A DNA stretch of 58,913 bases. It comes from Paralimibaculum aggregatum (GTDB lineage: Bacteria > Pseudomonadota > Alphaproteobacteria > Rhodobacterales > Rhodobacteraceae). The notes beneath the pieces are model-generated. The model did not search any database and was not told where the DNA came from. It saw only the letters and a list, made by a program, of their open reading frames with translations. Positions 12,546 to 32,224 of this stretch are shown here, one piece after another. Location: NCBI RefSeq assembly GCF_030270585.1, contig NZ_BSYI01000031.1, positions 1-58,913 of the forward strand. The letters are read 5' to 3'. The position numbers were made by a program, and so were the translations under genes. Every line of letters begins with the position of its first letter. Position 1 is the first letter of the stretch.

Positions 12546-13430
12546 TCAGGCCCGGCGCGCCGCGCGGCGCAGGTGCAGCAGATAGAGCGTCAGGCTGCCG
12601 ACCACGATGGCGCCGCCGGCGAGCATCGGCCAGGTCGGCGCCTCGCCGGTGCCGAGCCAGACCCAGACCGGGCCGAGCACCGTCTCGAGCAGCATCAGCA
12701 GGCTGACATTGGAGGCATGGGTGTGCCGGGTCGCCGCGGTCAGCGCGAAGAACGACACCGGCAGGATCACCGCGCCGCTCACCGCGATCGCCCAGACCTC
12801 GCCCTCGAGCAGCGCCGCCGGCCCGGCCAGCGCCAGCCCGATCAGCCCGGAGCAGAGCGCGCCGAGCCCGATCACCGGCAGGATCGGGATGCCGCGGGCA
12901 TGGCGCATCACCACGAAGCCGAAGGCCAGCGCCAGCGCCACGCCGAGCCCCGCGGCGGCGCCGGTGAGGGCGGCGAGGTCGAGCGCAAGGCCGCCCTCGG
13001 CGCCGCCGAGCACCGCCAGCGCGATGCCCGAGAGCACCGCGGCGATGGCGATCCAGGTCGCCGGGCTGGTCGGCTCGCCGGCGATCAGCCGCGCCAGCAG
13101 CGCCGAGAACACCGGCACCGTGGCGACGCCGAACAGCACCACCGCCACCGGCGCATTGGCGATGCCATAGCTGAACAGCAGCGAGTTGCCCGCCTGGCAG
13201 AGGATCACCACGGCGCAGATCGGCGCCGCCAGCGCGCGGAGCTCGGCGCCGAGCCGCGGCCCGGCGACGAGCGGCCAGGCCAGCAGCAGCGCGCCGCCCA
13301 TCAGCAGCCCGCGCCAGGCCACCATCTGGCTGCCATCCATGCCGGAGAGCCGCATGAACAGCGCATCCGGCGTGAGCAGCAGCGCGCCGGCGGTGGCCAG
13401 CGCGAGGCCGTGGAGGGGGTGGGATCGCAT
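12546..13430 (-). CDS. EamA/DMT-family permease
   Basis: 294 residues from the ATG at 13430 (MRSHPLHGLALA); a start 16 codons upstream is possible but adds only polar residues. Ten hydrophobic segments in two five-helix halves match the drug/metabolite transporter (EamA) repeat. Typical features are ALFMRLSGMDGSQMVAWRG near the N-terminus and SNVSLLMLLETVLGPVWVW in the second half. Located in the inner membrane, members export amino acids, metabolites or drugs; specificity cannot be read from sequence. It probably heads the minus-strand run EamA-AKR-GrdB-like. Confidence 0.9.
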   Translation of the reverse strand: MRSHPLHGLALATAGALLLTPDALFMRLSGMDGSQMVAWRGLLMGGALLLAWPLVAGPRLGAELRALAAPICAVVILCQAGNSLLFSYGIANAPVAVVLFGVATVPVFSALLARLIAGEPTSPATWIAIAAVLSGIALAVLGGAEGGLALDLAALTGAAAGLGVALALAFGFVVMRHARGIPILPVIGLGALCSGLIGLALAGPAALLEGEVWAIAVSGAVILPVSFFALTAATRHTHASNVSLLMLLETVLGPVWVWLGTGEAPTWPMLAGGAIVVGSLTLYLLHLRRAARRA

Positions 13431-13525: not shown

Positions 13526-13610
13526 GCCCCGCCCGGCCGCGCCATCGCCGCGGGCCGGCGCCCGCCCGCCCACCCCGCCGGCCCGCGGCGATGGCGCGGC
13601 CGGGCGGGGC
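13526..13610. repeat. 35-bp perfect inverted repeat with G-quadruplex/i-motif loop
   Basis: Left arm 13526-13560 and right arm 13576-13610 are perfect reverse complements over 35 bp. The 15-bp loop at 13561-13575 is CCCGCCCGCCCACCC, whose complement has four GGG runs with one-base spacers. It lies between divergent genes (EamA starts at 13430, the 438-residue protein at 13709), so it is not an ordinary terminator. Similar elements are at 15078, 31289 and, in variant form, 21068. Confidence 0.9.
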
Positions 13611-13708: not shown

Positions 13709-15025
13709 ATGCTGAGATGGCTTGGCCGGCTGCTGCTGCTGGCGCTCGTCGCGGTGCCGGTCTGGCTCGCCGCGGCGATGGTGGAGCCGGCGCCGCTGGT
13801 GCCCGTGCCCACCGAGGCGACGCCGGAGGACGCCCATGCCGCGCGGGCGCTGGTGCGCCGGCTGCGCGCGGTGACCGAGAACCCGGATGCCGATCCGCGG
13901 CTGCAGGTCGGCCTCGGCGAGGTGAACGGCGCCATGGCCTTCGGCGCGCGGCTGGTGCCGGGCCTGCGCGGCGAGGCGCGCATCCGCGCCGCGGCGGGCG
14001 GCGGGCGGGCGCTGCAGCTGGCGCTCTCCTGGCCGCTGCCGGCGGGGCTCGGATGGCTCAATGCCGAGGCGGTGGTGCCGGAGTTCGGCGCCGGCCCGCG
14101 GCTCGAGCGGGTGCGGCTCGGGGCGCTGGCGCTGCCGCCGGCCTTCACGCTCCGGGTCGGCGCGGCGCTGGCCGACCTGGTGCTCGGCGGCGATGCCGGG
14201 CAGACCATGCTGGCCGCGGTGCCGGAGCTGGCGATCGGCGAGGACACGCTGCAGATGGCGCTGCGCATGGACGGCGACATGCGGCGCGGGCTGACCCGGC
14301 GGGTCTCGGCGCTGCTGCGCGGCGAGGAGATGCCGACCGGGGCGGAGATCCAGGCGCATTACGTCGCGCTGCGCGACGCGGTGGACGACGGGCGGCTGCC
14401 GGACAGCGGCTCGCTGGTGCCGCTGCTGCGCTTCGCCGCCGAGCGCGTGCTGGCGACCGCGCCGCCGGGGCGCGAGGCGCATGGCTTCACCGCGGCGCTG
14501 TTCGCGCTGACCAAGTTCTGCGGCGCCAAGGAGTTCCGCCTGGTGGTCGGGCGGCTGGCCGAGGGCATCGTGCCGGAGGACGGCCGCAGCTGGACCCGGA
14601 GCTGCGACGGCATCAGCCTGGCCGGGCGCATCGACACGCGGCGCCATTTCATCACCGCGGCGGCGATCAAGGCGGCGAGCACGATCCATGTCAGCTTCAC
14701 CATCGGCGAGTTCAAGGAGCTCTTCGACGCGGCGCGGCGCACCGGCGGCTTCGATTTCACCGATATCGTGGCGAACAGCTCGGGCATCCGCTTCGCCGCG
14801 ACGATGATGGCGGCGCCGCGCGCCGACTGGCCGGCGCTGATCGCCCGGCTGGACGGCGAGGCGGCGGTGATCCCCGGCTTCGCGGGCATCCCGCCGAAGC
14901 TGTCGCGGGCGGAGTTCGAGACCCGCTTCGGCGATGTCGAGAGCGCCGCCTATCGCGCGATGCTGGCCGAGATCGAGGCGCGGATCGACCGGCTGGCGCT
15001 GCACGCCCCGGCGCCCGGCGGCTGA
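13709..15025 (+). CDS. Membrane-anchored/periplasmic protein of unknown function
   Basis: 438 residues from the ATG at 13709, preceded by GAGGGAGGG; the open frame extends further back only through the palindrome. An N-terminal helix (residues 4-24, [21 protein letters not shown]) is a signal anchor or signal peptide. The rest is soluble with no motif I can name. The most distinctive C-terminal part has [28 protein letters not shown] and [18 protein letters not shown], which I believe recur in uncharacterised proteobacterial proteins. Only two Cys are present (in KFCGAKEF and RSCDGIS), close enough to form a disulfide. It is flanked on both sides by G-quadruplex-loop palindromes. Function unknown. 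Confidence 0.7.
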
Positions 15026-15077: not shown

Positions 15078-15162
15078 GCCCCCGGGGTGCGGGCACGGGG
15101 CCGGGCCGACGCCCACCCGCCCACCCCGTCGCCCCGCCCCCGTGGCCGCGCCCCCCGGGGGC
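15078..15162. repeat. Imperfect long palindrome with G-quadruplex/i-motif loop
   Basis: Arms 15078-15111 and 15127-15162 pair along about 34 bp with a few mismatches (outer GCCCCCGGGG, inner CCGACG/CGTCG). The 15-bp loop, 15112-15126, is CCCACCCGCCCACCC: again four C-triplets with one-base spacers and one base different from the loop at 13561. It lies between two plus-strand genes, upstream of hisA. A further GGGGTGGGCGG follows at about 15177. Confidence 0.8.
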
Positions 15163-15216: not shown

Positions 15217-15954
15217 ATGAACCTCTACCCGGCGATCGATCTCAAGGACGGGGCCTGCGTGCGGCTCCTGCGCGGCGACATGGCGGCCGCCACGGTGTTC
15301 AGCGAGGACCCCGGCGCCCAGGCCCGCGCCTTTGCCGAGGCCGGCTGCCGCTGGCTGCACATCGTCGATCTCAACGGCGCCTTCGCCGGGCGGCCGGTGA
15401 ACGGCGCGGCGGTGGACGCGATCCTCGATGCGGTGACGGTGCCGGTGCAGCTCGGCGGCGGCATCCGCGACCGGGCGGTGCTGGAGCACTGGCTGGAGCG
15501 CGGGCTGCGCCGGGCGATCCTCGGCACCGCGGCGGTGCGGGACCCGGATTTCGTGCGCGCCGCGGCGGCGGCGCATCCGGGCCGCGTGGCGGTGGGGATC
15601 GACGCCCGCGGCGGCCGCGTCGCGGTGGCCGGCTGGGCCGAGGCGACCGAGATCGAGGCGGTCGAGCTCGCGAAACGCTTCGAGGATGCCGGGGTCGCGG
15701 CGATCATCTATACCGACATCGACCGCGACGGCGCCATGCAGGGCCCCAACCTGGCCGCCACCGCGGCGCTGGCGCGGGCGGTCTCGATCCCGGTGATCGC
15801 CTCGGGCGGGGTCTCCTCGCTCGACGACCTGCGCGCGCTGAAGGCCTGCGGCGCGCCGCTCGACGGGGTGATCTCGGGCCGCGCGCTCTATGACGGGCGG
15901 ATCGACCTCGCCGAGGCGGTGGCGCTGCTGGACGGCCCCGACGACGCGGCATGA
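15217..15954 (+). CDS. hisA: HisA, ProFAR isomerase
   Basis: 245 residues from the ATG at 15217 ([12 protein letters not shown]). It catalyses the Amadori rearrangement of ProFAR to PRFAR in histidine synthesis, in the cytosol. The (beta-alpha)8 barrel is complete: Asp8 in PAIDLKDG is the catalytic base, GGGIR near residue 78 binds phosphate, YTDIDRDG carries the second catalytic region, and IASGGV is the C-terminal phosphate site. Length matches the family. The next gene overlaps its stop by 4 bp, and hisF lies about 940 bp downstream. hisH is not in the window. Confidence 0.96.
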
Positions 15955-30242: not shown

Positions 30243-31271
30243 ATGCCAGCCCATACGCCCCGCGTGTTCTCCGGCGTGCAGCCGACCGGCAAGCTGACGC
30301 TCGGCAACTATCTCGGCGCGGTCAAGCGCTTCGACGAGCTCCAGGGCTCGGGGATGGAGACGATCTACTGCGTCGTCGACATGCATGCGATCACGCAGTG
30401 GCAGGACCCGGCCGAGCTGACCCGCGCCACCCGGCTGGTGACCGCGAGCTTCCTCGCCTGCGGGCTCGACCCGAAGCGCTCGATCCTGTTCAACCAGTCC
30501 GCCGTGCCGGGCCATGCCGAGCTCGCCTGGATCCTGTCCTGCGTGATCCGCATCGGCTGGCTGAACCGGATGACCCAGTTCAAGGACAAGGCGGGCAAGA
30601 ACCGCGAGGCCGCCTCGGCCGGGCTCTACACCTATCCGGCGCTGATGGCGGCCGACATCCTGCTCTACAAGGCAACCCATGTGCCGGTCGGCGACGACCA
30701 GAAGCAGCATCTCGAGCTCGCCCGCGACACCGCGGCGAAGTTCAACCTCGACTACGGCGCGCCGGGCGGGGCGGCTGATTTCTTCCCGCTGCCCGAGCCG
30801 CTGATCGAGGGCACGGTGACGCGGGTGATGAGCCTGCGCGACGGCTCCAAGAAGATGTCGAAATCCGACCCCTCCGACATGAGCCGGATCAACCTCACCG
30901 ACGATGCCGACACCATCGCGCAGAAGATCCGCAAGGCGAAGACCGATCCGGAGCCGCTGCCGGAGACGGCGGAGGGGCTGGCCGAGCGGCCGGAGGCGAG
31001 GAACCTCGTCGGCATCTTCGCGGCGCTGACCGGGCGCGGCGTGGCGGATGTGCTCGGCGAGTTCGCCGGGCAGGGCTTCAGCGCCTTCAAGCCGGCGCTC
31101 GCGGAGGTCGCGGTCTCGGTGCTGGCGCCGATCGGCGCGGAGATGGCGCGGCTGATGGACGACCCGGCGGAGATCGACCGGGTGCTGGCCGACGGCGCGG
31201 CGCGGGCGCGGGCGGTCTCCGAGCCGCTCCTCGAGGAGACGCGGCGGCTGGTCGGCTTCCTGCCGCGCTAG
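30243..31271 (+). CDS. trpS: Tryptophanyl-tRNA synthetase
   Basis: 342 residues from the ATG at 30243 ([14 protein letters not shown]), after AGAGGGAGCAGG; the frame is open upstream but that part is intergenic. Class I synthetase marks: the HIGH-like GNYLG in [15 protein letters not shown], the adenylate loop VGDDQKQH, and KMSKS near residue 205. Length is normal. It charges tRNA-Trp in the cytosol. It is separated from radC by a G-quadruplex-loop palindrome between the two convergent stops. Confidence 0.97.
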
Positions 31272-31288
31272 GCGCCCGGCCGGCGGGG

Positions 31289-31363
31289 CCCGCCGGTGCG
31301 CGCCGGCCTGCGCGCGCCCCGCCCGCCCACCCGCGCGCGCAGCCCCGGCGGCGCACCGGCGGG
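31289..31363. repeat. Bulged 27-bp palindrome with G-quadruplex/i-motif loop
   Basis: Arms about 31289-31316 and 31333-31363 pair in blocks of 12, 6 and 9 bp (outer CCCGCCGGTGCG, inner CTGCGCGCG) with small bulges. The loop at 31317-31332 is CCCCGCCCGCCCACCC, nearly identical to the loop at 13561. It lies between convergent trpS and radC and could also act as a bidirectional terminator. Confidence 0.85.
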
Positions 31364-31366
31364 CGG

Positions 31367-32224
31367 TCAGAGCAGGCCGAGCGCGCGGAAGCTCGCATCC
31401 TCCGCCTTGCCGACCACCACATGGTCGTGGACCACGACGCCGACCGCCCTGGCCGCCTGCTCGATGCGCCGGGTCATCTCGACATCGGCCTGGCTCGGCG
31501 TCGGGTCGCCCGAGGGGTGGTTGTGCACCAGGATGACCGCCGAGGCGTTGAGCTCGAGCGCGCGCTTGACCACCTCGCGGGGATAGACCGGCACGTGATC
31601 GACGGTGCCGCGGGCCTGTTCCTCGTCGGCCACCAGGACATTCTTGCGATCGAGGAACAGGATGCGGAACTGCTCGGTGTCGCGATGCGCCATGGTGGTC
31701 TTGCAGTACTCCATCAGCGCCGACCAGGAGGACAGCGCCGGGCGGCCGATCACCCGGGCGCGGGCCAGCCGGTGCGCCGCCGCCTCGACGATCTTGAGCT
31801 CGCAGATCACCGCCGGGCCGACGCCCTGCACCTCGGCGAGCCGGGCCGGCGGCGCCGAGATCACCGCGTTGACATCGCCGAAGCGCTCCAGCAGGCGCTT
31901 GGCCAGCGGCTTGACGTCGCGCCGCGGGATCGCCCGGAAGAGCACCAGCTCGAGGATCTCGTAATCGGCGATCCCGGCCGGCCCGGCCCCGAGCAGGCGC
32001 TGGCGCAGCCGTGTCCGGTGATCGTGGAAATGCGGGCGCTGCGCCGCCGGCGCCCGCGCCGCGGCGCCCGTGCCCGTGCCCGTGCCCGGCGCGCCCGGCT
32101 CCGGCTCCCGGCGCACCCGCCTGCCGGGCCTTGCGGCCGGCGCCGTCTCCGCCCCGAACAGACCCGGAGCGGCGCTCTCGTCAAAGGCCGGGCCATCCGC
32201 ACCCGGCTCGTCGTCCTCACGCAT
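31367..32224 (-). CDS. radC: RadC/JAB-domain protein
   Basis: 285 residues from the ATG at 32224 (MREDDEPG), chosen because GGGA lies at a good spacing upstream; earlier Met codons at 32257 or 32332 are possible. After a Gly/Thr/Ala-rich linker (about 10-65), HDHRTRLRQRLL begins the RadC N-terminal helix-hairpin-helix part. The C-terminal metalloprotease-like domain has the JAMM motif: VILVHNHPSGDPTPSQAD. RadC was once linked to DNA repair, but that role is doubtful and the true function is unclear. Confidence 0.93.
   Translation of the reverse strand: MREDDEPGADGPAFDESAAPGLFGAETAPAARPGRRVRREPEPGAPGTGTGTGAAARAPAAQRPHFHDHRTRLRQRLLGAGPAGIADYEILELVLFRAIPRRDVKPLAKRLLERFGDVNAVISAPPARLAEVQGVGPAVICELKIVEAAAHRLARARVIGRPALSSWSALMEYCKTTMAHRDTEQFRILFLDRKNVLVADEEQARGTVDHVPVYPREVVKRALELNASAVILVHNHPSGDPTPSQADVEMTRRIEQAARAVGVVVHDHVVVGKAEDASFRALGLL

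Follow-up and report, generated by a model that had tools for sequence, protein, structure and literature searches.

What kind of element keeps its loop and leaves its stem free is the question raised by three hairpins in the window, a stretch of 58,913 nucleotides on contig NZ_BSYI01000031.1 of Paralimibaculum aggregatum. Hairpin 1 carries the C-rich loop CCCGCCCGCCCACCC (13561..13575, forward strand), whose complement has four G runs joined by one-base linkers, on a perfect 35-bp stem formed by the arms 13526..13560 and 13576..13610 (35 of 35 pairs), as an earlier note on this DNA had described. Folded as DNA it reaches -62.3 kcal/mol (z -9.9), a value equalled by none of 200 shuffled sequences. 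It separates an EamA-like transporter gene (12546..13430, reverse strand) from a divergent gene without Pfam match (13709..15025, forward strand), which is followed by hairpin 2, with loop CCCACCCGCCCACCC (15112..15126, forward strand) on an imperfect 28-bp stem (15084..15111 and 15127..15154), and by a co-directional His_biosynth gene, hisA by sequence (15217..15954, forward strand). Hairpin 3, again with loop CCCGCCCGCCCACCC (31318..31332, forward strand), lies between convergent genes for a class I W/Y tRNA synthetase (trpS-like, 30264..31271, forward strand) and a RadC-family protein (31367..32116, reverse strand); its stem is bulged, and the limits of its arms (31288..31317 and 31333..31364) are set by the gapped pairing score. 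Both of the near-identical loops that the note had placed on other stems are real, and its divergent, co-directional and convergent gene contexts agree with ours; a perfect stem is found in hairpin 1 only, and the third loop starts one base beyond the position given (31317). The C-rich strand is the same in all three copies, a concordance that extends along contigs (see below).

A dispersed family in the genome of Paralimibaculum aggregatum

A covariance model detected 49 matches (E ≤ 1) dispersed over the genome of P. aggregatum, about one copy per 110 kb. The sequence CCCRCCCGCCCACCC occurs 40 times in these 5.5 Mb (19 forward and 21 reverse), and 11 times when read backwards. Around 36 of the 40 sites the flanks form 10 or more of 16 ungapped pairs, as do those of 0.9% of random positions, and the remaining four (L001, L023, L025 and L031) pair with an offset, at gapped scores of 23.5-30. 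Together with two sites that carry another linker variant, all 42 inspected sites have a long stem around CCC-R-CCC-R-CCC-A-CCC, with a gapped stem score of at least 13.5; random positions, scored with a shorter arm, gave 12.5 at the 99.9th percentile and a maximum of 19 (20,000 positions). Thirty-eight of the 42 are located between called genes and four were called inside genes.

The frequency of the loop and its association with inverted repeats, the two points on which the note could have been refuted, were both checked, and neither outcome refutes it. Counted on both strands of a 456,429-base survey, CCCNCCCNCCCNCCC was seen 10 times with 0.2 expected (mean of five second-order Markov simulations), and all 10 sites, with stem scores of 13-25, exceed the 99.9th percentile of random positions. 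A hairpin survey of the same 456,429 bases that was blind to the loop returned the family loop on nine of its 11 strongest hairpins. The whole genome holds 53 occurrences of CCCNCCCNCCCNCCC, of which 49 match the covariance model, a recovery that is partly circular as the model was built mostly from own sites; those at C2:88372, C2:199532, C9:113489 and C15:51098 do not match. With all linkers allowed, the third linker is A in 49 of the 53, which is tighter than a quadruplex alone requires, and the integrity of the C runs is partly set by the search patterns. The repeat family proposed in the note, extragenic and with a conserved loop on differing stems, is supported.

Distribution across genomes

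Rhodobacteraceae genomes contain from 0 to 93 model matches, and eight of 41 relatives have any. With cut-offs that differ by genome and a limited number of candidates scored per scan, the counts are 93 for G057, 35 for G090, 25 for G259, 21 for G261 and 19 for G116 (E ≤ 0.01), and 40 for Pseudoroseicyclus tamaricis CLL3-39 (G022, E ≤ 0.1), next to the 49 of P. aggregatum. A search of 84,980 species genomes for a 19-base version of the motif gave 114 stretches, and 76 of the 80 matches listed carry the name of Rhodobacteraceae, Paracoccaceae or Rhodobacterales, or of genera assigned to this group. The stem score is at least 9 in 75 of these 76 (8 in L201); L259, among the matches listed, is interrupted by a contig end. 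A good stem was lacking in the four listed outsiders (score 2.5 in Verrucomicrobia, 3 in Fibrobacteres, 8.5 in Ilumatobacteraceae and 1 in Streptomyces), and none of 17 loops in viral contigs is surrounded by more than 7 of 16 pairs, by which a phage-borne origin was rejected. No match was found in 16 genomes of other families of the class, and the pattern R1 matched one of 289 genomes of the class, the own one, in a scan that is insensitive (it recovers 19 of the 49 own matches). Within the collections scanned, the family is restricted to Rhodobacteraceae. Three of four congeners lack an R1 match and one has a single match, so the element is dispensable.

In genome G008, copies are part of a composite repeat of approximately 300 bp (L043, L046, L048, L050, L052, L054, L056 and L058); other hairpins of this repeat are better conserved, and the inner stem of its C-loop hairpin is hypervariable.

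Conserved loop and variable stem

This family conserves the loop CCC-R-CCC-R-CCC-A-CCC, the pairing of the arms and, frequently, an open mismatch at a distance of 4-9 pairs from the loop, whereas the sequence of the stem is free. For the alignment, 66 hairpins were found, 57 of which had at least 12 of 18 pairs, and 51 of these were aligned. Paired cells amount to 90.4%, a percentage inflated because the set was selected for pairing, versus 49.3% in shuffled controls and 41-46% in slid ones; covariation scored 0.879 versus 0.206 after shuffling, and cells changed on both sides number 344 versus 132 in shuffled sets, with G.T in only three of 918 cells. Change on both sides at all 18 pairs was left unused as evidence, because shuffles equal it (17.9). 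G-C and C-G are both frequent at all 18 pairs, no stem column is invariant, and the invariant columns are confined to the loop; sub-families have parts of their stems in common.

Orthologous loci provide more independent evidence than the alignment. Upstream of betA, the loci L102, L107, L235 (Pelagimonas phthalicica) and L255 (Pseudorhodobacter ferrugineus) carry the same loop type on unrelated stems between flanks that are homologous on both sides, and L116 has the same loop type on a likewise unrelated stem with homology on the betA side only (gene names at these loci were read from protein sequences). The relatives L303 and L304 differ at this locus by one change from a C-G to a T-A pair. 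Paired stem changes were also found between L111 and L198 at an agmatinase-like gene, and between L189 (an uncultured Rhodobacteraceae) and L207 (Salipiger bermudensis), and at L193 (S. bermudensis AmN7-7) an outer arm is reduced by the loss of eight bases. At L121, a locus of 48% GC, the loop is kept on an AT-rich stem. Loop variants among orthologs are the linkers AAG in L303 and L304 and one broken run in L313; invariance of the loop in the pattern-based sets is partly by construction, and the unbiased evidence is that of the loop-blind survey and of these ortholog variants. A universal betB-betA element was rejected: among 70 betA genomes read over about 200-450 bases upstream (the gene start was missed in one, and the spacer limits were uncertain in many), L303, L304 and the degenerate L313 carry a copy in addition to the five starting loci.

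Mismatches near the loop were counted in 164 stems, those with scores below the threshold having been dropped. A T.C mismatch closes 113 of them, 59 of which are forced by the 19-base pattern; outside this pattern it closes 15 of 16 stems in G022, six of seven in G008 and three of 38 own stems. Pairs 4-9 include one or more mismatches in 83 of the 113 T.C-closed stems and in 23 of 48 stems with a paired closing position, and pairs 9-16 of the T.C-closed stems are nearly perfect. At mismatched positions of the inner stem, G is avoided on the C strand (A.C 62 versus G.T 9, C.C 51 versus G.G 3, C.T 40 versus A.G 7), in pattern-based and remaining data alike; over whole gapped stems the bias is weaker (A.C 47 versus G.T 27). 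This choice of mismatches points to a folded single strand with the C-rich loop; the bias can equally be read as stable G.T, G.G and G.A contacts on the G strand.

Placement behind genes

Genes were called with a simple codon model, not taken from annotation, and placement is given relative to the C-rich strand: +C- is convergent, -C+ divergent, and -C- follows a G-sense gene and lacks a C-sense gene on its upstream side. The 42 own copies comprise 19 +C+, 10 -C-, eight +C-, one -C+ and the four called inside genes. The single divergent copy is hairpin 1, and the other 37 of 38 lie behind at least one gene; divergent placement is rare compared with the survey gaps of at least 60 bases (53 of 195, counted without weighting by length; p 0.0005), and for convergent placement the own genome shows no significant excess (p 0.22).

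Among 93 copies in other genomes (103 sites minus nine at locus ends and one called inside a gene), 36 are +C+, 31 +C-, 13 -C- and 13 -C+. A C-sense gene lies upstream of 67 of these 93, and in 59 of the 67 its stop codon is at most 50 nt away. By genome, G022 has five +C-, four +C+, four -C- and no divergent copies (n=13), with a C-sense gene upstream of nine (p 0.27), and G008 has four +C-, two -C-, one +C+ and one -C+ (n=8). A C-sense gene precedes 16 of 17 copies in G090, where three of 20 loci were dropped, an intact loop being absent at their centre, and 14 of 20 in G259 (alone p 0.12); divergent copies number one of 17 in G090 and one of 20 in G259, the latter with five of 20 in -C- position. 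Of 36 convergent junctions from five genomes, 28 have the C-sense stop closer to the hairpin than the opposing one (p 9e-5), an effect carried by G022, G008 and G090, the own genome (5 of 8) and G259 (5 of 9) showing nothing alone. Spacers of co-directional genes also hold copies, as in betB-betA and, at L121, livF-livH (names from sequence).

Strand polarity and replication

Polarity was counted within contigs holding more than one copy, contig 2 of G022 being split at a dif-like site. The majority strand carries 31 of 35 own copies (p 0.0009) and 36 of 39 in G022 (p 5e-6). All 24 copies counted in G090 are on one strand per contig (25 of 35 matches listed), and concordance is likewise complete in G261 (13 of 13; 13 of 21 matches listed) and G116 (14 of 14; 17 of 19 listed), two genomes examined for strand concordance only. 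Around the 5.56 Mb contig of G259, treated as circular, the sign changes four times with 10.1 changes expected (p 0.007; 20 of 25 matches listed). Polarity is thus present in most multicopy genomes tested; it is not significant in G057, which has 93 model matches (29 of 36 among the matches listed, p 0.10). Exceptions in the own genome arise in part because neighbouring copies are oppositely oriented (G000:C2:112719/112926, G000:C60:6484/6605 and G000:C1:203507/204772), and close pairs in opposite orientation were also observed in G057, for instance C117:137945 and 138070.

On contig 2 of G022 the GC skew passes from positive to negative near 350 kb, and the orientation of the copies is reversed somewhere from 241 to 450 kb; a dif-like site at about 333,448 (L145:13448) matches the E. 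coli dif consensus at 19 positions. In the flanks of own and G022 copies the CCC strand is richer in G than in C; its flank skew is +0.107 in G090 and +0.044 in G259, and in these last two genomes third-codon skew on both gene strands agrees. The C-rich strand is accordingly taken as the leading strand in the own genome, G022, G090 and G259. On this assignment by skew, to which the dif-like site adds in G022, it is the lagging strand that bears the G runs, and they oppose the skew. Gene-strand bias was rejected as the cause of polarity, as coding bases near copies are about even between the C and G strands (28,578 versus 29,778 in G090; 32,682 versus 37,011 in G259); in samples, the C-strand share is 63% on contig 1, 49% on contig 3 and 31% on contig 4 of G022, and approximately 56% in the own stretches.

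Ordinary bacterial G4 motifs resemble the family in their four G runs and in a strand bias relative to replication; they generally favour the leading strand, along the GC skew, according to the available part of PMC12581993, whereas the preference is reversed here. G4-seq of Rhodobacter sphaeroides revealed neither enrichment nor depletion in any genomic region (PMC6486626), and the Paracoccus nasT G4 (PMC5123632) differs in sequence from the family loop.

Comparison with known systems

The note had suggested an extragenic palindromic repeat, for which a REP-associated transposase might be sought, or a cruciform-G4/i-motif site with its own binding protein. The family is like REP/BIME elements in being short, extragenic, palindromic, multicopy and mostly behind genes; unlike them it has its consensus in the loop and not in the stem, displays strand polarity and lacks the Y1 (RAYT) transposase, as PF01797 was found in none of eight genomes (the control was positive in five of 14 known genomes). 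A REP/RAYT origin was rejected on this absence together with the lack of a stem consensus. The 15-nt loop exceeds the default maximum of 11 stated for RepRanger in the available text of PMC12306157.

Intrinsic terminators share with the family a stable hairpin shortly past stop codons, often at convergent junctions, and differ from it in that here the T tract is missing, the 15-nt loop is conserved, the strand follows the contig, and copies are found also in spacers of co-directional genes. A T tract directly past the stem was seen in none of 163 stems in C sense and three of 163 in G sense, compared with 76 of 3260 random positions, and terminator scans of the window, with a loop limit of 8, found none. 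The canonical intrinsic terminator is therefore unlikely and was rejected; the note's exclusion of a simple terminator stands to that extent, and its argument from gene context is weakened, since only hairpin 1 is divergent and 37 of 38 own copies lie behind at least one gene.

KOPS and Chi are dispersed, replication-polar short duplex words whose G-rich strand is leading; the family is likewise dispersed and replication-polar, but consists of hairpins with the C-rich strand leading. TMECO/BoxC elements are also G/C-rich structured intergenic repeats in bacteria, and the available part of PMC4666352 describes a triplex motif with a fixed purine stem and a third strand, whereas the family has an arbitrary stem and a fixed loop. 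Identity with an Rfam family was rejected: the window gave no gathering match, and five other loci gave eight sub-threshold matches only, three of which are microRNA models over the hairpin of L114. As for MITE or transposon features, the arms are not conserved, and no precise empty site was found, the hisA spacers of congeners being too diverged. Among titles and abstract beginnings of the open PMC literature we found no description of a loop-conserved hairpin family, nor of the combination of fixed loop, free stem and replication orientation.

Possible origin and function

The best explanation of these results is a vertically maintained hairpin family of Rhodobacteraceae, in which position indicates the gene end and orientation indicates replication. 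That the host maintains it as a gene-end hairpin, with recognition through the loop and an orientation set by replication, is a reading we favour tentatively, with somewhat less than even confidence. The folded C strand would be the active form: present in transcripts of leading-strand genes, at the 3' end or in an operon spacer, it may act as a transcript-end or transcript-insulating structure, with the C-rich loop bound by a putative family-specific nucleic-acid-binding factor. In a reversed copy the G-rich complement would become the lagging-strand template and be exposed single-stranded, where it could fold into a hairpin capped by a quadruplex, and copies in this orientation would be lost; action at the RNA level, the binding factor, quadruplex formation and selection against reversed copies are the steps that we infer. 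The -C- copies are unexplained by a C-sense RNA role and are accounted for by strand polarity; they constitute the main difficulty of an RNA-only view and the main support of a replication signal. A further reading, which we consider doubtful, is a new class of chromosomal signal, a single-stranded hairpin that can be read only from the lagging-strand template (and from leading-strand transcripts) and by which a Rhodobacteraceae-specific factor would couple gene ends to fork passage. The candidate factor would bind the fixed C-rich loop together with the open stem mismatch, a reversed copy would not be tolerated, and the stem would be free in sequence, its shape alone being what counts.

A polar DNA signal of the chromosome that acts on the lagging-strand template while this is exposed, such as a priming, restart or translocase site with secondary placement at gene ends, would account for strand concordance in five genomes with the flip at the dif-like site of G022, for the polarity that -C- copies obey too, and for the folded-strand architecture; copy numbers of 0-93 between genera and the non-significant polarity of G057 are odd for a core signal, however, and the tight spacing to C-sense stops is left unexplained, which makes this alternative rather improbable. 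Strand polarity speaks also for a mobile or copied REP-like hairpin, inserted as a single strand into the lagging-strand template by non-Y1 machinery and tolerated mainly behind genes, as do the patchy copy number (0-93), the avoidance of divergent gaps, and the partly shared stems and long common flanks inside G008. Most stems, however, are not copies of each other, orthologous copies persist with paired stem changes, a turnover in place that mobility does not explain, PF01797 is missing from all eight genomes and none of the 17 viral-contig loops has a stem, and we regard such mobility as unlikely, if a little less so than the polar signal.

Still less probable is a mutational by-product, in which template switching at a hard-to-copy G run remakes perfect arms with a strand bias. 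It agrees with the paired changes, among which one-sided G.T intermediates are nearly absent; template switching perfects quasipalindromes in a strand-biased manner (PMC7202029), and arm homogenisation is a known process (PMC8604942). It does not explain the third-linker A (49 of 53 own sites), the positions of stem mismatches, the placement at gene ends, or the same loop standing without a good stem in four non-family genomes and 17 viral contigs. Template switching may nevertheless supply the paired changes under any of the readings, that of a host-maintained hairpin included.

Bacterial palindrome families are usually recognised by a common stem. In this family identity resides in the loop, and the stem changes its sequence without losing its pairing, so that similarity-based searches for repeats and RNAs can miss it. 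Its orientation follows the replichores, runs opposite to the GC skew and has no counterpart in the strand distribution of genes. Whether replication constrains G4-capable hairpins, usually a statistical matter, can in this way be tested directly, each genome offering tens of natural sites, e.g. in Pseudoroseicyclus tamaricis.

Other elements at gene ends

A second class of element was observed near position 1501 of the loci L041, L044, L104, L108, L110, L112 and L124, mostly close behind stop codons. A G-rich run like GGGTGGGTGGG directly abuts the CCC motif, a separate loop being absent, and GGGGGCGCTGCCCCC follows next in several of them. Another palindrome type, similar to GGTGGGTTATAGGCCCACCC, is located at convergent gene ends in G022 (L086:5321 and L085:3624).
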